Source: Isoetes taiwanensis
Lineage: Eukaryota; Streptophyta; Lycopodiopsida; Isoetales; Isoetaceae
Reading direction: 5' to 3'
Assembly (NCBI GenBank): GCA_021234155.1
Contig: JAJEKV010000006.1
Location: 8,275,003 to 8,339,002, forward strand
DNA length: 64,000 nucleotides
Position numbers and translations under genes: made by a program. Below, one piece after another: positions 21,284 to 58,260 of this stretch (positions within the stretch are counted from its first letter, which is position 1; the number at the start of each line of letters is the position of its first letter). The notes below the pieces were generated by a model. It saw only the letters and a list, made by a program, of their open reading frames with translations, ran no database searches and was not told the origin of the DNA.

Positions 21284-23848
21284 TTACCAATAGTCTCCAC
21301 AAGAGCATTCCCCATTATGGAAATGATGAAAACGCATTGAATCTCTTACAGTAATTACCCGATCAGCAATGTATGAAATGATCTTTAAAACTGCATGGCA
21401 ATCGGCACAAACTCTAAGATTTTTTAGGATACGAAGAGGAGTGCCAGGAGGGGTATTCATGAGCCCAAATGTGATGGCAAGTTTTTCGCTATGGTAGCAG
21501 AGAAGCTGTTTTTTCCGTTCTTCAGCCACATCATGCAGTACTAAGTTTGTAATTGGGATGTGTCCTGCAATTTCTATGTCCTTGTAAATTTTTTTTAACT
21601 CGGCATAAATCTTGTCTTTCTGTGGATGTGACGTGTCATTTGCATAGAAATGATGCATTTTTCCATTGACCTCAATCGAGCTTCGCCCTGGCAATTTCAC
21701 TATGCCGCGGTCTCTCATTTCTTTTCTCAGTCTCCCAACATCAGCCCATCTGCCAGCTGTTGCATATATATTAGATAAAAGAACATAAGATGCAGCTTCC
21801 TGTGGATTTAATTCAAATACATGTTCTGATGCACGCTTTCCACGGTCTGGGTCATTGTGGTTCGTACAAGCTCCAAGCAAGGTTTTCCAGACCAAAATAT
21901 CGGGCTGAATGGGCATCTTGTTAATAAAATCTTCTGCTTCATCTAATTTTGCGGCACGTCCAAGAAGATCAACTGTGCATCTATAATGTTCCAAAATGGG
22001 TGTGGTAGAGTACTGTTCAGTCAGACTAACAAAATAATGAAAGCCCTCTTTAACTAACCCAGCATGACCGCAAGCTGAAAGAACAGATAGCAAGGTAATC
22101 TCATTTGGCTTTATGCCAGCCAGATGCATTTGGCAAAATACCTCAAGAGTCTCCATGACATGGCCATGCTGCCCATAGGCTGCAATCATGGCAGTCCAGC
22201 ATTCCAGATTTCGAACAGCTAATTTATCAAACATCCTTCGTGCATCCATCAGATTTCCACACTTGGCATACATGTTAATCATGCCGGTGGCAATCATGAT
22301 CTCAAACTCAAGCCCACTATCCACAATATGGACATGAGCAAGCCTAGCCTCTGTAAGGAGGCCCATGTTAGTGCATGCTTCAAGGATACTTAAAAAGGTT
22401 ACTTTGTTTGGTTTCACGCTTTTCTCTATCATTTGTTGAAAGGTATCAAGGGCTTCTTTGCTAAAGCCTTGTTGTGCATAGCCAGTGATCATGGCATTCC
22501 ATGATACTAAATCCCTTTCGGCTATTTTCTCGAACATCCTCCATGCATCCTCTACATTTGAACATTTCCTGTACATATTGAAAAGAGCTGTTCCCACCAC
22601 AATGTCTGAATCTAGTGCGTTTTCAAGAACGCAAGAATGAACAAGCTTACCTTCTGCAAAATATATTGAACTGGTACATGCATTAAGAATAGTTGCATAT
22701 GAGAAATGATCTGGTCTCACTCCTCCTAACCTCATTGCTCTAAAACATCTAAGTGCTTCTTTATGATCCCCATAGTCTGTAGATCCTAAAATCATGGAGG
22801 TCCATGATACAATATCTGGTTCAGGCAATCTATTGAACAGATTTTTTGCATCTATTAAGCCCCCACATTTACAATACATTTTTAGAAGTGCATTTCCAAC
22901 AATAATGGATGACTCTAACTGCCGACCTACAATCCAGGCATGGATTAACTTACCTTCTGGAAAAGCTTGCTCATTAACACACACATTTAAGATGCTGGTA
23001 AAGGTAATTTCGTCAGGCTGCAAAGAAGTTCCTTGAATTTGCCAAAACAGGTCAAGAGCTTCATTGCAACATCCATGTTGTGCATATGCACCAATCATGA
23101 CATTCCAAGATATCAGGTTACGCACTTCCATCCTTCCAAATGTTGCCATTCCATGACTCGGATTACCACACTTGCCATACATATGAATAAGAGAATTCAA
23201 TAAAAAAATGTCATTGCACAATGGACTACTTACAACGTGAGAATGAATCAACTTACCTTCGGCCAGGGCTGCTGGACTGGTACATAAGTTAACCAAAATT
23301 ACATACGTAACTCGATTCGGCTTTGTCCGACCATCCTGCATTTGCCTCAATAAGTTCAGAGCTTCCATCATATATCCATTCTGAGCATATGCTGCAACCA
23401 AGGCTGTCCACGATACTACACTATGATTATCTGTTCTATTGAACACCAAAAGTGCATCATTTGGAGTCTTCGATTTTCCGTACATAACGATAATAAGAGT
23501 GGTCAACACTCTATCTCCATTGATCCCATTTCCAATCACATGGGCATGAATTTTTTTACCCTTTGATGACTTATCACACTTCCTTAAAAGGTTATCATAC
23601 ACGAGAGAATCACTGTTTCTTTTTTCAGAGACCTGCCTTTCTACTTGTTTTCTCTTGGTGGATCGATGTCGGGAGATCGTTTTCTCGTTGCCTTGGGTTT
23701 TAGAAGACTGCCCACCTTTTTCTCGCATTTCATGTGCAATGTCTGTTGATAAAGTGCGACATTTTGCACTGCTACCAGGTTTGGCATGACGGAAACTTAA
23801 AAGCTCTAGAAGCAACCTTAATTTCATTGCTCGCTCTGATGATTCCAC
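21284..23848 (-). CDS. PLS-class pentatricopeptide repeat protein with DYW domain, intronless
   Basis: One uninterrupted frame encodes 854 aa. Residues 1-80 are basic and Ser/Thr-rich with an Arg-rich start, consistent with an organelle targeting peptide. From about residue 85 to 640 there are successive PPR motifs of P, L and S type (for example SWTALVAAYAQNGYMMEAL, SWNAMITGYAQQGFSKEAL, CWTAMIAAYGQHGHVMETL). E1/E2-like motifs follow to about 718. Residues 719-854 form a full DYW cytidine deaminase domain: the PG box (LPGRSSIEV), HSE (His786, Glu788), CADC (Cys814, Cys817) and the C-terminal DYW triplet. All zinc and catalytic residues are present. Family knowledge: such proteins bind specific organelle RNAs and convert C to U. 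The target site cannot be read off here. No broken repeat was noticed. Confidence 0.95.
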   Translation of the reverse strand: MESSERAMKLRLLLELLSFRHAKPGSSAKCRTLSTDIAHEMREKGGQSSKTQGNEKTISRHRSTKRKQVERQVSEKRNSDSLVYDNLLRKCDKSSKGKKIHAHVIGNGINGDRVLTTLIIVMYGKSKTPNDALLVFNRTDNHSVVSWTALVAAYAQNGYMMEALNLLRQMQDGRTKPNRVTYVILVNLCTSPAALAEGKLIHSHVVSSPLCNDIFLLNSLIHMYGKCGNPSHGMATFGRMEVRNLISWNVMIGAYAQHGCCNEALDLFWQIQGTSLQPDEITFTSILNVCVNEQAFPEGKLIHAWIVGRQLESSIIVGNALLKMYCKCGGLIDAKNLFNRLPEPDIVSWTSMILGSTDYGDHKEALRCFRAMRLGGVRPDHFSYATILNACTSSIYFAEGKLVHSCVLENALDSDIVVGTALFNMYRKCSNVEDAWRMFEKIAERDLVSWNAMITGYAQQGFSKEALDTFQQMIEKSVKPNKVTFLSILEACTNMGLLTEARLAHVHIVDSGLEFEIMIATGMINMYAKCGNLMDARRMFDKLAVRNLECWTAMIAAYGQHGHVMETLEVFCQMHLAGIKPNEITLLSVLSACGHAGLVKEGFHYFVSLTEQYSTTPILEHYRCTVDLLGRAAKLDEAEDFINKMPIQPDILVWKTLLGACTNHNDPDRGKRASEHVFELNPQEAASYVLLSNIYATAGRWADVGRLRKEMRDRGIVKLPGRSSIEVNGKMHHFYANDTSHPQKDKIYAELKKIYKDIEIAGHIPITNLVLHDVAEERKKQLLCYHSEKLAITFGLMNTPPGTPLRILKNLRVCADCHAVLKIISYIADRVITVRDSMRFHHFHNGECSCGDYW

Positions 23849-25490
23849 CCATATAAGGGCGAATCCGTCTATTTTTAAGAAGGAAAATAGGAAAACGGGG
23901 TACCATACCTTGGTCGGCTGTGCATAAACTTTGGAGCAGCGGGACAGACAAATTCGAAGTGAGAGAAGCTATGCAAAGAGCAACGTTAGCATTTACTTCT
24001 GCAGCTTTTGTGTTTGACAGGTCTTTTAGGGTGGGCTGCTAGGAAGTGGAGTTCTTTGGGGTTGTCCTATAAAGTGGGGGAGATTCATTTCAGTAAATTT
24101 CTGACTCAGATTGGGTTGCCCTCCGGTGCCCTGAAGGCAAAGTGGCTTAAATTAAACCTTTAAAGTCATGGTTTCACAATCTATATTTAAATCAAAATTC
24201 CTACTTCAAAACATCTTCTTTTTTATTTTGGTAAGGTGTTGGGGAATGTGCCTGTGCAGCCGCATGGAACGCCGCATGGAACGCCGCATACGGCATTCCC
24301 TTTTCCCCTTGCGGGACGCTAACCCGACGCTAACGCGCTATTCCATAGAAATTTCAAAATTTTCTTCAGCCTCCCGCTGCACAGGATTCACTCTCCTCCT
24401 CCAACTCTCATTATTCGCCTCTTGCTTCCATGATTTCCTTTCAAGGTTTAAAATGGAAGAGCGAGCAAACAGATTTTATCATTTTGAAGCCGATTTTGCA
24501 GCAAGGAGGTGTCGTTGAAGCAGGTATGACCCGTGTACCTTATCCTATGCATTTATCTGGTGTTGGTTGCATTGAGAGAGACAATATCAATTCAGGGAAT
24601 TAATCACTGGAGTTTAAATCGCAAGAGCTAGAGCAATCGGTATAGCAGCAGAGCGCATAGGATCGCTGAAGCAAACAGGTCGCCTAAGCAAACAGGTATA
24701 TCCAAGGGCTATATCCCCTCACGGCACTATTTTGAATGTGTGCGTTGTGTTTTGGAGGTCAGACCGTTCCGTCCATTTTTTCCTTATTTTTTCTTCAGCT
24801 GCTTTCGATCTTCTTTTGTTGTCACTGGATTTGACCAATTCCTGACTGGTTCTAGCCTTGAGAAGGGCCAAGTTTATAAGAAAATAACTGCCTTTTTTTT
24901 TGCTAGCAAGGCGGATATTCATCTATGTGCCAGAAGTTTTGCATCAGTGGAAGGTAAAAAGATTTTATCTAAGGGGAAAAAAATGCCGTTTTGCAACCAT
25001 GTTTTTACCTGTCACACTTTTGCAGATAAATCTTGCGGAATGGAGGAGAGGAGTGGAGGAGTGGAGGCGTTATTTCTAAAAATCTTGCCAGATTGCTGGG
25101 TACCAGATCCTTTCTATGCTCTTAGATTTCGAACAAGGTTAGAATGGAGGAAAAGGCTTTCGATGTCTGTTATCGGTTTGATCATACTGCATGTATGCAC
25201 CTGTTTGGAATCTAATTTTGTGGAGAGAGCCGGCTACCTCCTTGGTTTCTTTGAAAGCACCCAATGGCATGGCTATGGCAAACTGAGGTAATCTATTGAG
25301 GGTCGTTCTCTCATTCATTGTTGCATTGATCAATTTTTCTTTTCATATCTGGTAATTCTTTTACAAGTAAGCAACCTCTGACTGGTAGTTTTTTTTACAG
25401 GTAAGCTGCTATTCATTCATGCAACACAAATAAATCTACTTCAGTACACTAGCTATCTTTATCTCTGGTATAACTGGAGCAGTGTAGACA
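23849..25490. other. intergenic with unassigned open frame
   Basis: It holds the upstream region of the PPR gene. A 12-nt tandem (GCCGCATGGAAC-type) lies at about 24258-24290. A 183-codon open frame on + (24740-25291) has Phe/Ser/Cys-rich, low-quality composition and no recognisable motif. It probably represents chance reading through AT-rich DNA or transcribed leader sequence, not a protein gene. No promoter element is clear. Confidence 0.35.
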
Positions 25491-31171: not shown

Positions 31172-32720
31172 GTGAAAATAGATCTAAAAGAGAGCAAGGA
31201 ACTCTGTGAGACTAAAAACCAGTTTGATTTAAGAATTGAGTACAAGAGTCAAGGACAGCCAAAGAACACACGAGATAAAGTCTATATTAGACTAACCTTG
31301 TACAGACTAGCTAGCTTATCCCACTGCTTTGCAACAACCAAAGTGAGGACATGTCTAAGCTATTAAGTTCTATCACGTCGGGGATCATCATCGTATATCC
31401 CTAGTAACCAACTTCCAAATATAAGAGACATTTGCAATGTCTAAGCTTTTAAGTTCTATCACGTCGGGGATCATCATCGTATATCCCTAGACCAACTTCT
31501 TGTACAGACTAGCTAGTCTGTACAAGAACACACGAGATAAAGTCTATATTAGACTAATCTTGTACAGACTAGCTAGCTTATCCCACTGCTTTGCAACAGC
31601 CAAAGTGGGGACACGTCTAAGCTTTTAAGAGCCAAGGACAGACAAAGAACACACGAGATAAAGTCTATATTAGACTAATCTTGTACAGACTAGCTAGCTT
31701 GTCCCACTGCTTTGCAACAGCCAAAGTGGAGGACATGTCTAAGCTTTTAAGTTCTATCACATCAAGGATCATCATCGTATATCCCTAGTAACCAACTTCC
31801 AAATATAAGAGACATTTGCAATGTCTAAGCTTTTAAGTTCTATCATGTTGGGGATCATCATCGTATATCCCTAGTAACCAACTTCCAGCTATAAGAGACA
31901 TTTGCAAGGTTTAAACACATGACCAAATGAACACTTATTTTTGGCATTAATAGGCCTATACCAACTCACCACACATCCGTTGGGCAAAACTTTTGCCCTA
32001 CATGCACACTTTGTAGGTAGGATATAACCCCACCTTAGGAAGTCTAGGTCCAAGGGCGTTGTTTTTAAGCCTCACCATCCTAATGCCACCTATCATGGTC
32101 CCGTTGTTTTTATACTACTTTGTTTAAGGTCCATACTAGACTAATCTTGTACAGACTAGCTAGTTTATCCCACTGCCTTGCAGCAGCCAAAGTGGAGGAC
32201 ACATCCAGGCTTTTAAGTTCTACCACGTCGGGGATCATCATCGTATATCCCTAGTAACAAACTCCCAAAGATAAGAGCCATAAGTTCTACCACATCGGGG
32301 ATCATCATTGTATACCTCTAGTAATCAACTCCCAAAGATAAGAGACATTGGCAATGTTTGAACCCATGACCAAATGAACACTTATTTTTGGCATTACTAG
32401 GCCTACACCAACTCACCCTACATCCGTTGGACAAAACTTTTGTCCTACATGCACACTTTGTAGGCAGGATATAATCCCACCTTAGGAAGTCTAGGTCCCA
32501 GGGGCAACTCTAGGGCATTGCTTTTAAGCCTCCTTTTCCTAGTGCCACCTACTATGGTCCCGTTGTTTTTTTTATTACTTTGTTTAAGGTCCATACTAGA
32601 CTAATCTTGTACAGACATATAGCTTATCCCACTGTCTTGCAGTAGCCAAAGTGGAGAACACATCTAGGCTTTTAAGTTTTACCACGTCAGGGATCATCAT
32701 CGTATACCCCTAGTAACCTC
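31172..32720. repeat. complex direct-repeat array
   Basis: Two interleaved units recur. A unit of roughly 180 bp contains CACACGAGATAAAGTCTATA, TTGTACAGACTAGCTAG, CCCACTGC.TTGCA.CAGCC and GGGGATCATCATCGTATATC (the last about seven times: near 31379, 31465, 31763, 31851, 32229, 32296, 32690). A larger unit of about 445-460 bp carrying ACTTATTTTTGGCATTA occurs at about 31930-32130 and 32373-32590. Copies differ by substitutions and truncations. No coding content and no LTR or primer site was identified; it may be a degenerate satellite or nested non-autonomous element. Confidence 0.75.
31499..31526. repeat. perfect 28-bp palindrome
   Basis: CTTGTACAGACTAG is immediately followed by its exact reverse complement. 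It lies where one array unit appears to join an inverted fragment of another, so it probably marks a rearrangement junction and not a binding site. Confidence 0.85.
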
Positions 32721-45000: not shown

Positions 45001-46270
45001 GGATGTTTCTCAAAAATGCCTAAGTTAGCATATACATCCGTCCTCTAGCTTGAGCCGCATCCTTTCAACGGCCCGTCCAAAACTACTATTGTTTCGAAAC
45101 CTAATATGTAGGCTATTACACGCTAAAAAACAAACAATAAACACTAAAAAAAGAACATACAAACAATAAAAAACCTACAACCACACGATTTTCCCTCTTC
45201 TTTAAAATCAATGGCTAAGAAAGGGGTGCACTCTAGAAATACTGTTTAGTACATTCACGTGAATACATCGTCCAAATCATAAAAAACCTTTAGTAAAAAG
45301 CGTACAAAAAAACCAAAGAAAACACCTATTATTATGCTAGATATTCATACATGTGTACCATCACACCGAATCTAGACTTGGATGGACACAAACCTTAATC
45401 CACTCAAATTATTTCTGCTCAAAATATAATGTGTTTGCAAACATCTCAACATACCATCCTCAACATGGTTAGTGAGGCGCATTCGAAGTTAGAAGAGGAA
45501 AAATAAGCAAAAAGCATCAACTACATTACGAGTTTTGAATTTCTCATATGACCACGGCCCCCTGAGCAGAAGATCCCAAAACTTACTCTGTCAAATATCA
45601 AAATGGAAAAGCTGCCACATGTAAAAGCAGCTAGGAGATCAGTATTTAATGAGCTAATGTTTAGCTGGGTTGAATATTGCAGGAACTTGCACTTGCAGAT
45701 CGACATCCAATTCATCCAATCTGATTAGGGTTGGCGCCAAATTTCTCAGTCTTGTATTTCGAAGTTCTGAATTTTCCAAACCCAGCCTGTCTGCCTACAC
45801 CTGGATATCGCAGATTATATAATACATAAGGAAACAGGGATGATTGAGCAAATAGATTACATAAGAGTATGATGGCTTACCTCCTAGGAGCTTTTCAACC
45901 TTCTGTCCTCTGCTGTAGAGTTTATTCATAACAAAAACCATTTCTCTGATAATTTACTCAACCAAAACCCCCAAAGCAAATAGACAAATGACTCGACATG
46001 CTTGCTAGATCTAGCCTGCGATTTGCCTGTTAACTTGTGGAAGTTGTTTTTCGTCGGCCAATCTTGAGAAGCTAAAGTCTTTCTGGCAATCAGGTTAAAA
46101 TAACGCGATGAGGCTTTCTGGCATCGATTTTGCTAAACAGATTATAGATTTCAGCCAGTTAGCCAGTTTGCACAGCGACTGCCCAACAATACTGGAGCGA
46201 AAAAACAGGCAACAACAAGTTTGGAGCGATTTTTTGCTATTCTAGGCAGATTCTAGCATATACTTACAAT
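39065..46270. other. 7 kb of AT-rich sequence without a recognisable gene
   Basis: Only short frames occur on either strand. A short (GAATA)n tract lies at about 41643-41660. GACAAAAACCTATTA occurs twice in tandem at 44761-44795. Segment 43580-43690 resembles 63690-63835, with shared words AATCCCAAAATCA, AATCATAGGAAA and AAGGTAGATA/TAAGTAAGATA, suggesting an old dispersed repeat. A minus-strand frame of 133 codons (43731-43330) has no motif. This could be introns of a transcript whose exons I cannot recognise, or ancient repeat DNA. Confidence 0.35.
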
Positions 46271-46289
46271 ATGCCAAAAACCCACATGA

Positions 46290-48402
46290 GCAAGGGTTTG
46301 CCCCTAGCTAATGGGAAGGCAGCTGACCTCGATGGTATGCGTGCCGAAGTTACTCAAGTGGGGTGGCAGCCGCTTGTGCCGGGCCCTCACTACCTCGCTC
46401 AACGTAGCATTGCAGAGGGTTTCCCGACAATGGACCACGCGTGGTTGTTCCCATTCACAAGGCGGGCGACCCACATCGTCCGCCAATTAATGGACGATCA
46501 TGGTCGGTTCAAGATTTGCCAAACCGCTATCGGCATTCTCGAGCAAGCAGATTGACCTACCGGGCGAGGCGGCCGGATGTCGAGACCCTCACACAGGCGT
46601 GGCTCTCGACCCCGCCACTCAACGATTGACCATATCTTTACGCCGCGGGCACCGGATTGAAGACACCGGAATCATCGGTGGACTTGTATTCTTTGCTTTT
46701 GGACTTCCCGCAAAAGGCTTTTGATACTGATCCCCTAAAAGCCGTGGGCTAGACTGCGTTTGGGGGCTCCCCGCTTGTCTAAGAAATGCCATATACGAGG
46801 TTGTATGAGAGTTGTTTTGGCGGGGATGCGGCCGCCGGGCCAAGCATTCACCCGGTAGTATCGGGGTCGGCGGGTTGCCCCCCTCGCCAACACTTTTGGC
46901 CTCTACATTGATCGGTTAGAGCCACGGCTTCGCGAGCATGGGGGGATGGCATCTGACTTTTGCACGGGTCATCCGCCCGGCTCATCTATGCGGACGATGT
47001 TGGCTGCTGGCCCACACCCCCGAAGCTATGCGATCTCACGGATGCCCTAGACACATTTTGTCGCTACGAGACATGCGTCAATCGGCCAAGACCGGGGTGG
47101 TTCTCATATCCTCTTCCGTCACCCCATGCCTCCTGCACTCACATATCGGGGGGGCGGCTTTGTGGGCGTCCGCCCACCTACAAGTACCTAGGGGTGGAGT
47201 TCCCCTCCTGCGCTCTTGGGAGGCGTCTATCGCTGCGGGTGATGGTAGGCCGGAAAGCGCTTTATGCCATGCGAGAACAACAAATCACCGTGCGAGCTAT
47301 ATGATTGGGGCCATCAGTCACATGCTCGCACCGGTCGAGCCGGCCCTTCAGACGGGTCGAGGTTTGGGGCCCGGCCGCCTCTCTTTGGCGACATTGGAAT
47401 GACTTGGAGCAGAAGGCATTTTTGGCACGGGCACTTGGGGTGAAACCTTCAGTCCCCTATCGATTACTGGCTGCAGAACCGGATTCTTTCGCCAAATGGG
47501 CAGCCCTTGATAGACACATCGCTCTATTTTCGTAAAGTGGTTACTATGGGTGATGCTCGGCTCCCCGCGACTGGCTTACACTTGGGCCATGAGTCCGGCG
47601 GCTTAGGGCCCGCTGGAGGGTAAGAGAGATCGGTGGTTCGCCAGATGGAACGTGCGGAGCAATGATGCGCATACCGTTGGCAGCAATGGCCGATCGCGGC
47701 GACTGGCGGGAGTACCTAGATGCTTGTTTCCTTGGCAAGCTCGGGACCCCATTGCTCTAGAGCAGTCAAAATGGCCCATTACAAGGGAGCACATCAACCC
47801 AGGTGTTAGCCCGGGGCCCACGGCTCACTGCGTTCCCGGTTTGCCCTCTAAAAAGCCTTGAGACTCATTGCCTCCATTCGCGACGGTGCCCACCATCGCC
47901 GCGATCGAGGCAGGCGGTGGATTGGGAGCCCCCGGGGGCCGAGCTCGCCAGCGGTCTTTGCCAAACGGGTGCCATTGAGGATGAGTCTCACACTTTCCGA
48001 GAGTTGCTTGGTGTTGGTCCGATCCGGGCGATCACGGCTCCTTAGTACGGCCGGACGTGCCCTTGCATTTGCCGATGAACACACCGCCAAGACGGGCCAC
48101 CGGGTCATACATCCGAGGTACCGGACTGCGAGGTCACATTTGCCCCCTTTGGGCTGTCCGTGACACTAGGCACTACGGGGTGGTGCATGACCGTATATAT
48201 TGGGATGTTTACGCATTTTATATGATTAGCACGGTTTGTCGGCGAGTGATTCGATTGCCCACGGTTTTTCCTCGAAAACCCTTCGGGCGGGTTTTTTAAT
48301 CCGGGCAAGAATCCGCTTGTCGCGTTTTTTGTATTGGGTCCCATAGACCGATTGGTCTCCGTGGACGATAAAAGTACCTTCCTTCCTTCCTTCCTTCCTT
48401 GG
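46290..48402 (+). mobile_element. 5'-truncated LINE with decayed reverse transcriptase and (TTCC)n tail
   Basis: A GC-rich block in AT-rich DNA reads on + as a frameshifted LINE ORF2. It shows PLANGKAADLDG (RT start), PIHKAGDPHRP, FGLYIDRLEPRLREHGG, the catalytic LIYADDVGCW (YADD at about 46987-46998), CGRPPTYKYLGVEFPS, then WGPAASLWRHWNDLEQ and ALGVKPSVPYRLLAAE, and the C-terminal IASIRDGAHH..., TGAIEDESHTF zinc-knuckle-like region. Several frame changes and stops make it dead. The 3' end runs GGGTCCCATAGACC...GTGGACGATAAAAG and ends in six TTCC units (48379-48402). It shares the family of the 57.6-kb copy. Confidence 0.85.
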
Positions 48403-54426: not shown

Positions 54427-55105
54427 GCACTTGATTTACTTGGTGCATGATTTTTTTATGATGCCATTACATTTTTTGTCATAGACATTGTAAAGGTTTA
54501 CACACATAATATAAAGTTATTTATATTTATGATTTGCTAGTAACAAATGCTGCATTGTTGGGCATAAATTGATGTGAAGCATTTGGTTGGATTGAATAGA
54601 TTATCTTAGATATAATGAACAAATTAAATGTTGAAATTATGATGTCGTTCAAGTTGGAATTACGATATGAATATTATATTAGTATTATCTATTACGAAGG
54701 GAGAAGGTTCGGCTATATGTAGCGACTTTAAATTTTAGGTGGATGTTTTATGGGATGGGATAGTGGAGTCTTGTGATATTTCTTCTTATGGAGAATCGAG
54801 TGCATTAAGTGGGCTTTTGCAAAGAGTTTTTTTTATGTTACACACGCCACCACGCACTCCATTTTTCTATGAGAAGGCATTAACTTGATATAAGTGTATT
54901 ATATCATTTGGGGTGTATTATAAATTTTTGTGACCATTGAATGGAGGCATATTACACATGATATTCCACATCATGAAATTTGGACCCTTCAATGCAAGTC
55001 AAGATGGGGTCAAATCCATCCCATTTGACTCACCCCTTAGAACCATCATTTCGGCCATATAACCATCCCATGGTTCCATATCCTAGAAGCATAGTTCAAG
55101 CAGCA
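54427..55105. other. 3' UTR of the phytocyanin gene and intergenic DNA
   Basis: Possible polyadenylation words (AATATAAAG near 54508, ATAATGAAC near 54615). No gene. Confidence 0.35.
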
Positions 55106-55222
55106 GCCATTAAATTACAATGAGCCTGGGGAGTCGAACCCCAGTATAATTCCCATGCTCATCCAAGCATAGCATGCATCCCACAAAAGGGATGCTTGCT
55201 ATGCCCAGGGGCCGAAGCCCAC
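55106..55222 (-). repeat. tRNA-like / SINE-like remnant with B box and hairpin
   Basis: On the minus strand CTGGGGTTCGACTCCCCAG (55142-55124) contains the exact Pol III B-box GGTTCGANTCC inside a T-arm-like stem. About 28 nt upstream is TGGATGAGCATGG, a one-mismatch A box. Farther upstream lies a near-perfect stem-loop around GCATAGCATGCATCCC (55167-55207). It does not fold as a full tRNA by eye, so a SINE or decayed tRNA gene is more likely than a functional tRNA. Confidence 0.4.
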
Positions 55223-55499
55223 TAACACATCAAACAAGTTAGTCCTATTTATAAAACATAAATAAAAAGTGACCTCATAACGGTCCCTAACCAATTTCAG
55301 TTTAATCGCAATCATTAACAAACCATTTCCTATAACCAGCATCACCACAATTATACAGTAACTCAAAAACAAACTTTACAATGTTGAAGAACACTCAACC
55401 AAGCGAAGGAAGTTGAACTCCCCAACACCAAGGTGCTCCAACAAGCACTACAACACAAATCTAGATCAACCTCCATCAACCTCACATACAAATAACAAA

Positions 55500-57200
55500 C
55501 TAACAAAACATAACCACCAAAACATATAACAGAACTAGTTGAGCATGCCTTATCGCCGCATCTAATTGACGTATTTCTTGCACAAGCAATGCCCTTGCAA
55601 GGCTCATATGAGAATGCAATATGTGCAATTCAGAAACTGGCACACCCAAGAGAAACTGGCACACCCAAGTGCTCCCACTCCACAACAGATATAGCACTGT
55701 CAATGGACATGCAGAATGCCCTAAGCTGTCGGTGAAGCACACGGAGTGATGCCGCAATCCTATGTGCCTCAGTGCCAACCTGAATGACATTATTACGGCA
55801 AAGCACACGGAGTGATGCCGCAATCCTATGCGCCTCAGTGCCAACCTGAATGACATTATTACTAAACTCCTGAGAGGAGAACGCTGCCTCTGGTCCAGCT
55901 GAATACACAACAAGATTGGGATGGAATGCATCTATGTCAGATGAAATGAAAGACTCTGGCAAGGACACAACTGGCTCGTCCACACCAACAACTGGTTCCG
56001 GATCAGTCTCAACACCAACAACTGGTTCCGGATCAGTCTCCATGACTCCTGCAACTGTACAATAAAGAAAAACATGAAAACAAAAAAAGTGAGTTGTACA
56101 ACCAACACCCAAGCAAGTCTATCAACCAACTGCCATCGTACGATCACCCTTGTGCACAGGGATATAATCTACGCCAGGCTCAAGTATCACGACATCAAGG
56201 CTATCTGCACTGTAAGAAGCATCATGTATGTCCTCAAAATTATTGTCTTCCTCATCAGTAGGAATAGCATCATCCCAATAATGCATGCGGCCAGGCCCAT
56301 TCCTTTCCACAGGCACAAAGCCTGCTGGCAAACCAAATAGGATCATCCTCATGTCGGATGGCATGCAGTGGCTAGGATTTAGCAACACTCTCCAGGCTGC
56401 TCGAACACGATTCTCATTGATATGAGCCGTGTTTGAAGGGATGATCCAAGAACTAGACAAAGTAAATTTCCCAGATTGAATCATCCTAGCCAAGGTATAC
56501 AATAGACTCGCAGTCAGCCTACGATTCCCATGGTAATTCACAAAATGTGCAGCTCTATTCAAAAGGTTCTTATTGTCAAGCACAACAAGGTTTTTCGTAT
56601 CACCAGCTCCCCATCTCAAATAAAGGTCTTTTCCTTTTTCAATAGCAACTTCACTAACATTATGGAGGTGACAAACATAATGGACTTTCCCAACATCTTT
56701 CATGCAGTACCCAATCATGCCTTCAAAATAATGAAGGCGGCGGTTTTTAAGGGCTTTACATACCAGAATCACACCTGGTGGCTTTGAAACCCAATTGAAA
56801 TCCTTTTTTATAGCATCATTCATGACCTGGGGCTCTTGAACCGAGCTCTAAAAATAGCCTGGCAGTGCAAGTGATCAACGCTTGCACCACGCTCCATGGC
56901 CACAGCTCCAGCCAAACACCTTCAATTGCAAAAGCCAACAAGGGCATCATAAAAACTCGTGGGCACATCTTGCCCAGACAAACCCAAGGTGACACAGACA
57001 TCTATGCCACTTCAATCCTGACCAAGACAAGAACCAGCAGCATGTCCTCTAGTCTAGGCTCTCCAGAAGAGGACCCGATTTTCAAAGAACTCAGAGAAGG
57101 AGGCACAGACCAAGCAACATCCTTCCCATTCCTCGCTGCTCTCTTCAAAGACATCACAAACAAACAAAAAAACCAGCAAACCTGGCTTACCTGTGACAGA
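55500..57200 (-). pseudogene. HUH endonuclease (Replitron/Rep-like) transposase relic
   Basis: The minus strand encodes the ordered motifs of a single-Tyr HUH endonuclease. A motif-I-like strand VCVTLGLSGQDV lies near 56997-56962. Motif II is ERGASVDHLHCQAIFRA with His-Leu-His at 56873-56865. Motif III is GMIGYCMKDVGK with the candidate catalytic Tyr at 56709-56707 and its Lys three residues on. The frame continues 56823-56122 (NILNRA-like LLNRAAHFVNYHGN, LARMIQSGKFTLSSSWIIPS), typical of these eukaryotic HUH proteins. After a short probable intron comes a C-terminal part (56060-55630) with internal tandem duplications. Inactivating lesions are TGA at 56924-56922 and a +1 shift at the G-run 56829-56832. 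No helicase motifs were seen. Termini not identified. Confidence 0.65.
55632..56045. repeat. three short tandem duplications within the HUH relic
   Basis: A 19-bp pair (AGAAACTGGCACACCCAAG, about 55632-55669), a 66-bp pair (55733-55863, differing at about three bases) and a 30-bp pair (about 55987-56040, containing AACTGGTTCCGGATCAGTCT). All keep the reading frame or nearly so. Their near identity shows they are recent relative to the decay of the gene. Confidence 0.8.
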
Positions 57201-57620
57201 AATCCCCTGACAGAAAGCTGCAGATGCCCTTCCAAATAGCTGAGATGCTCCCTGCTTATTGTGTGGCCCAAAACAGAAAGACTGCGAGAGCGAAGACACA
57301 TACCCAGTGCCGCCGTCACCATTTCTGCCATGCCCATCTCCAGACCACGTGAGAATACGCAGTTCCGACCAACCCAAGCAGAGATTCCAGCCCTAGATTC
57401 CCATGTTTCAAATCCACACTGCCAACATCATTTCCTACCATATTTTTATACGAATACGCATACTAACCATGCACAATCTTAGGTTATAAAAATACCCTTT
57501 TTTATTTCGGCCACATAATATATGCAATGGTTGAAGTGCATACATAATTGTTCATCATAGTCATTTTTTGGGTGTGTTTCTAGTAAGAACACACATATTG
57601 GTCCATGAGTCTCTTTAGTA

Positions 57621-58260
57621 AGAATAGAATAGAATAGATTTTTAGCGTCCACGAAGACCAATTGGCCTATGGGACCCAAACAAAAAGAGAGCAGCAAGCG
57701 TATTACTGACAGGATTAAAAAACCCCTGCCCCGAAGGGTCTTCGAGGGAAAAACCTTAGCAGTAATAAGTATGCTGGCACGCTGTACAATTGTATAGGAC
57801 AGTTCAATACCGTCCCATATGACACAAATGAGTCCGTGCATCCATAACCTCCTAGAGGTATGACCCAACCAAACCCACTGACGCCGTAGTCAATAACTGA
57901 TGCAACGGCTGGCCAGACACTAGTAATCGAACATATCGCTCTCGGATATGGGCAAATGCTGGCCAGATCTGGAGGGCATGACATTCATCCTCAATGGCCC
58001 CCTGGTGGCAACACTGGCAAAGCCTTTGCTCTCGTGCTTCCCGAGCCCAACGCCCTGTTTCAATGCGGAGGCGATGTGCACCCGTGCGAATGGAAGCTAT
58101 AAGTCTGCGCTTCTTCATGGGCAGCTGGGTGTACAAGTACTGGTGTGGGCCTCTTGTGAGCCCAAGATTGACTTGCTGCTGATAGTGTGCCAGTGTAACG
58201 TGCGTCAGAGCCTCTGCATCCCAGAGCTTTACATAGTTGTTCATCATGGTCAATTGCTAA
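57621..58260 (-). mobile_element. 5'-truncated LINE copy with (TATTC)n tail
   Basis: The minus strand from 58253 reads LWDAEALTHVTLAHYQQQVN, then RLIASIRTGAHRLRIETGRW and RLCQCCHQGAIEDECHAL (a CCHC-like C-terminal motif of LINE ORF2), and AFAHIRERYVRLL. It is followed by a 3' UTR nearly parallel to the 48.3-kb copy (CTCGAAGACCCTTCGGGGCAG, GGGTCCCATAGGCCAATTGG, GTGGACGCTAAAAATC) ending in TATTC units. Only the last ~130 codons of ORF2 remain. Confidence 0.85.

Follow-up and report, generated by a model that had tools for sequence, protein, structure and literature searches.

A decayed Replitron-type transposon with a single-tyrosine HUH endonuclease, and its multicopy family, in the genome of the lycophyte Isoetes taiwanensis

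The minus strand of the window—the whole stretch of 64,000 nucleotides analyzed here, positions 8,275,003 to 8,339,002 of contig JAJEKV010000006.1 in the Isoetes taiwanensis assembly GCA_021234155.1—carries an element of 2.63 kb (54894–57519) that is almost certainly a decayed Replitron-type element. To the whole explanation, a decayed Replitron in the sense of a eukaryotic DNA transposon with a single-tyrosine HUH (Rep-type) endonuclease, we assign a probability of roughly 0.85. Replitrons and Helitrons are, to our knowledge, the only HUH transposons known in eukaryotes; the founding description of Replitrons is reportedly that of Craig in 2023. Passages of a review (PMC10741241) already list lycophytes among the Replitron hosts and, hence, the element type as such is known. 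A term search of the main texts of both Isoetes genome papers (one being PMC8566536) did not find the word Helitron, and neither paper was among the matches of a full-text literature search for "replitron". Judging from these searches, Replitrons are probably not named in the Isoetes genome annotations.

The bounds of the window copy follow from homology edges against 20 copies, which place the 5′ end at 57519 (ATTATGTGGCC) and the 3′ end somewhere in about 54884–54897. The extent of 55500–57200 given in the original prediction was, hence, too narrow. ORF1 (56128–57154, minus strand) encodes the Rep/HUH transposase and is broken: compared with the open copy P0001 (L009:3993-5021, minus strand), which serves as the reference for ORF1 damage, its reading frame shifts twice and meets two or more in-frame stops. 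The term relic was well chosen for this copy. The order of strand I, HUH, and Y-x-x-K motifs on which the prediction was built is there on the minus strand—VCVTLGL at 56979–56999, ERGASVDHLHCQ (DHLHCQ) at 56859–56894, and the catalytic tyrosine motif GYCMKD at 56695–56712—but not in one reading frame, as the first two motifs share a frame with a stop codon in between and the tyrosine motif lies in another. The spacing from HUH to tyrosine, predicted as about 55 residues, comes to about 53 codons in the window copy and to 52 residues in P0001 (H97 to Y149).

Family membership is carried by the Pfam profile Replitron_HUH (PF21859). The window piece 56122–56847 matches it with 36.8 bits (E 5.9e-9) and P0001 with 68 bits at a curated cut-off of 28.5, and all aligned ORF1 members, 17/17 and 29/29 in the two sets, match at E 0.1 or better. 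The companion profile Replitron_C (PF21860) stays sub-threshold; it reaches E 0.1 or better in 15 of the 29 members, with a best E of 0.0052 and with shown scores below the 27-bit cut-off. An alignment of 29 sequences—28 from this genome, the window included, plus a sequence termed L041—shows G103, Y104, C105, K107, and D108 to be invariant (GYCxKD) and HLH to be nearly so; over the alignment, W, L, GYC, KD, G, and H are kept invariant. Protein searches for relatives among PDB sequences, plasmids, and phages found none, and PHROGs returned an unnamed family alone (E 0.045 and 0.0014). In prokaryotic records, one match was found among 75 pattern-bearing stretches, namely L041, which lies on a contig of 5 kb from a Cyanobium MAG. 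Since this PF21859 match (L041:2472-3436) is the sole one in that assembly, L041 is probably an algal contaminant.

The Reps of CRESS-DNA viruses, which are fused to a superfamily 3 helicase, have the same motif order of strand I, HUH, and Y-x-x-K. ORF1 could accordingly be read as the replication gene of an integrated, geminivirus-like CRESS-DNA virus that was amplified in the genome. However, at E 1 or better P0001 and the window pieces match no Pfam family other than Replitron_HUH and Replitron_C, and no helicase family appears there or among the families listed for the 17 and 29 ORF1 members and for 16 members of the second coding part described below. A search of viral contigs with two peptide patterns matched 41 stretches, 0 of which were confirmed as relatives, and the element bears the ends of a transposon. 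A viral origin is, in our view, highly improbable.

The structure prediction suggested along with the original prediction did not prove the HUH fold. The models, with a mean pLDDT of first 34 and then 57, show a ferredoxin-like core. Foldseek gave no match at E 0.001 or better, the best rows being PII proteins, a deformylase, ribosomal, and SerB2 chains, and no HUH nuclease is among the best 50 rows of either structure search made with this low-confidence model. As the part of the model that holds the tyrosine has a pLDDT below 50, the missing HUH match is no evidence against the fold.

The family is large and diverse, and it was mobile at least in the past. The copy counts that follow are lower bounds: the DNA search of the genome gave 861 candidates, of which 40 were scored (window included) and 40 matched, with the DNA of the window element recurring in the 39 other scored places at 81–92% identity (main match per place). 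The protein search gave 4677 candidates, of which all 118 scored match with 63–100% identity in the main matches; by hand count, 58 of these 118 relatives have no stop in the matched stretch, some of them being matched only in part. The PF21859 search gave 2165 candidates, 150 scored and 150/150 above the cut-off, against 0/14 in control genomes. In a tree of 22 of the 29 alignment rows (the seven omitted rows being the window piece plus six that are fragments or near copies), the genome copies form four or more groups—the window family with L039/L040, an L043-type, an L050-type, and L055/L060—at UFBoot values of 87–97. L041 forms a long branch there, and the program warns that long branches meet. 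A second, more distant Replitron relative (about 42% identity) is found at L011:7090-7832, about 0.8 kb past the 3′ end of a family copy.

The two ends of the element behave differently. At the 5′ side (57459–57519 in the window, minus strand), 27 of 33 copies share a start at an AT[T/A]A.GTGGCC-like sequence, and the other six are truncated or without a 5′ end that could be found. The flanks of the copies with this common start are unrelated, the pair L017 and L022 excepted; these two, separated by about 20 kb of a single contig, have the same flanks, a local duplication, and were counted as one insertion for this reason. The 3′ end enters a tail of the unit ACACCCCAAATGATAAT (54894–54925 in the window, minus strand) and stops at points that vary among copies. 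In addition, the first 17–65 bases of the element recur in direct orientation about 150–370 bp before the 3′ end, above all 50 shuffles in 15 of the 27 copies; 11 of these 15 repeats start at base 1, and 3 of the 15 clear the shuffles narrowly. The window copy bears a degenerate form of this repeat (55048–55062, minus strand; 15 nt, 93%; repeat search), which does not rise above the shuffles. The genome-wide search for multicopy elements with shared ends, suggested along with the original prediction, yielded at least 150 HUH domains and one 5′ end in 27/33 copies. The alignment of copies for termini and target site, likewise proposed there, gives this 5′ end, a 3′ end that varies, and no target-site duplication beyond chance.

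Insertion sites were assessed by searching the genome with the joined flanks of 18 + 7 copies. Three empty sites, L025 (GCA^ATAAGG), L011 (GTG^AAATGT), and L032 (GCA^ATAACT), could be recovered on both sides in paralogous repeats, the insertion of L032 having cost a few target bases; for L027 (GGA^ATAGCA), the empty site is present on the left alone and the right side is lost. No empty site was found for the other 21 of the 25 copies. At all four sites, the target continues with 1–4 bases matching the element start, which makes the junction ambiguous by these 1–4 bases. All four insertions lie beside an A, four being few for a target rule. Over 22 copies, the longest common suffix as a measure of target-site duplication is 2–4 bp with a mean of 3.2, as compared to 2.9 in mismatched pairs (up to 7). 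The empty sites are compatible with a duplication of 0–3 bp, and the 22-copy comparison leaves room for 2–4 bp.

The lack of a clear target-site duplication, the A beside the insertion in 4/4 empty sites, and the lack, in a repeat search of the window copy, of terminal inverted repeats at least 14 nt long would also suit the relic of a Helitron. Helitrons, however, work with a pair of catalytic tyrosines and have a helicase fused to the enzyme. The Isoetes element has one tyrosine in its invariant GYCxKD, no helicase family in ORF1 or the second coding part, a match to PF21859, a length of 2.6 kb, and other ends, which makes a Helitron origin scarcely credible. Shared with Helitrons, as described in part in passages of a review (PMC10741241), are an HUH enzyme, the lack of a terminal inverted repeat, no clear target-site duplication, and hairpins near the 3′ end. 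The claim of a Replitron-type single-tyrosine HUH endonuclease rather than a Helitron in a plant is, hence, borne out by the PF21859 match, the lack of a helicase family, the invariant tyrosine, the many copies with a common 5′ end, and the empty sites.

Downstream of ORF1 lies a second conserved coding part (55539–56049, minus strand), hereafter part 2, which starts near METD and in the window copy carries tandem duplications of 66, 30, and 19 nt. The sequence TTGCAG or a near variant precedes it in the listed copies, L036 excepted, and part 2 may for this reason be a spliced exon 2. The splice donor for joining ORF1 to part 2 varies among copies, which is compatible with a putative exon 2 as well as with a separate ORF2. 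Pfam scans of 16 members gave no family common to the members and no convincing match; four families appeared, each in 1 of 16 members at E 0.059–0.19, and were put down to chance.

From their substitution patterns, both coding parts look constrained. For ORF1 (about 340 amino acids), the median dN/dS is 0.15 in the 55 of 78 pairs with finite values (23 saturated), a low value that is favored by the picking of these copies for open frames. For part 2 (about 138 amino acids), 66 of the 78 pairs give finite values (12 saturated), with a median of 0.18 and one pair above 1. Such low ratios in both parts might point to an immobile, domesticated family of host genes. We consider this very unlikely for the family, as the many dispersed copies share one 5′ end amid unrelated flanks and have empty counterparts in repeats. 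Single members may nevertheless have been domesticated.

Between part 2 and the tail of the Replitron lies a structured block of 115 bases (55116–55230 in the window, minus strand), with three hairpins: one of the sequence GGGC-TTCG-GCCC, a long one, and a T-arm-like one (loop TTCGACT) within a further stem. Its alignment holds the 25 copies with the T-arm motif within three edits; L032 and L039, which carry the motif without the rest of the block, were omitted. The RNAalifold structure of these 25 copies has 35 pairs, with 96.9% of 868 cells paired and 4 pairs changed on both sides. The covariation amounts to 0.133 as compared to a shuffled mean of 0.090 (0/500 shuffles as high) and to at most 0.046 when the structure is slid, where the shuffles ignore relatedness and the structure is scored on the alignment from which it was derived. 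The count of pairs changed on both sides is weak by itself, as 71/500 shuffles also reach 4. When eight regions are compared in 16 elements, the block ranks first with a median pairwise identity of 90.7%, ahead of ORF1 (88.7%), part 2 (86.4%), and the remaining five (74.5–82.1%). A search of the genome with the block gave 499 candidates, of which 40 were scored, all with at least 92% in the main match.

Hairpins at a subterminal 3′ position are common signals of HUH transposons, and this speaks for a block that is read by the Rep as single-stranded DNA. Alternatively, within the same element, the block might act in RNA, in 3′ end formation or tRNA-like processing or as a Pol III box B. The T-arm-like hairpin with its TTCGACT loop and weak sub-threshold tmRNA matches suggest as much; ARAGORN, however, finds no tRNA or tmRNA in the window. 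We regard such an RNA role as possible yet doubtful. Among the Rfam matches, the tmRNA family hits the block at 55126–55222 (minus strand) with 14.1 bits at a cut-off of 47 (E 0.0078) and is found sub-threshold once more at L031 732-749; the tmRNA, RT-17, and SMAD5-AS1 matches were all rejected as sub-threshold. The block also carries GGTTCGACTCC, which resembles the Pol III box B by comparison with its consensus.

For the Replitron with a DNA-level signal, a mechanism can be proposed from these sequence features. The Rep would nick single-stranded DNA before AT[T/A]ATGTGG, with its tyrosine becoming joined to the 5′ end. The displaced strand would then be carried to a target starting with the same first 1–4 bases (A, AT, or ATAA). 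There, the 5′ end would be joined precisely and the 3′ end loosely, aided by short homology between tail and target. The hairpin block and the 5′-end repeat in the 3′ region would be the likely recognition or termination signals. Of this scheme—Rep nick, precise 5′ joining, and loose 3′ joining—we infer that it is somewhat favored, at slightly better than even chances. A parallel in bacteria are the Y1 elements of the IS200/IS605 type, which likewise combine a single-tyrosine HUH enzyme and subterminal hairpins with a target that resembles the cleavage site and which, where the Isoetes element shows none beyond chance, make no target-site duplication; their protein belongs to another family.

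Around the element, several further features were noted. An open frame of 134 amino acids at 57852–58256 (minus strand) resembles, by eye, the terminal part of a LINE reverse transcriptase and has no match in a Pfam scan, and the adjacent 57724–57849 of the window recurs inside locus L014. An 894-amino-acid open frame at 21284–23968 (minus strand) is by eye of the PPR-DYW type, and PPR-like frames also lie close to the copies L025 and L027; many PPR genes are described in passages of the Isoetes taiwanensis genome paper (PMC8566536). At 31834–32718 lies a tandem array with two copies of a 447-base unit, and 46001–48000 forms a GC-rich island of 56%, the other 2-kb blocks having 34–45%.

As summarized in passages of a review (PMC10741241), Replitrons measure 0.9–4 kb, lack terminal inverted repeats, and bear direct terminal repeats of 5–11 bp and target-site duplications of 2–8 bp. 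The Isoetes element agrees with this in its 2.63 kb and, for the window copy, in the lack of a terminal inverted repeat, as it agrees with Replitrons in a Replitron_HUH match above the cut-off, a single tyrosine, no helicase family, and a non-seed plant host. It differs from those passages in that no target-site duplication beyond chance is seen and that, instead of short, clean direct repeats at its termini, the 5′ terminus is repeated inside the 3′ region ahead of a variable 3′ tail. As compared to Replitrons as known from Pfam and these passages, it also has part 2, a conserved coding part that Pfam does not match convincingly. Part 2, the 3′ hairpin block, the recurrence of the 5′ terminus close to the 3′ end, and the variable 3′ end without a clear target-site duplication were less expected than the element type. 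Tentatively, and with the odds rather against it, the Isoetes Replitrons might represent a one-sided-insertion variant with exact joining at the 5′ end, 3′ joining by tail homology, and no target-site duplication, guided by the three-hairpin block and an extra protein part that other HUH transposons are not known to have. With at least 150 HUH domains, many open frames, and usable empty sites, this genome offers a direct way of testing the ends, target rule, and cis signals of Replitrons.
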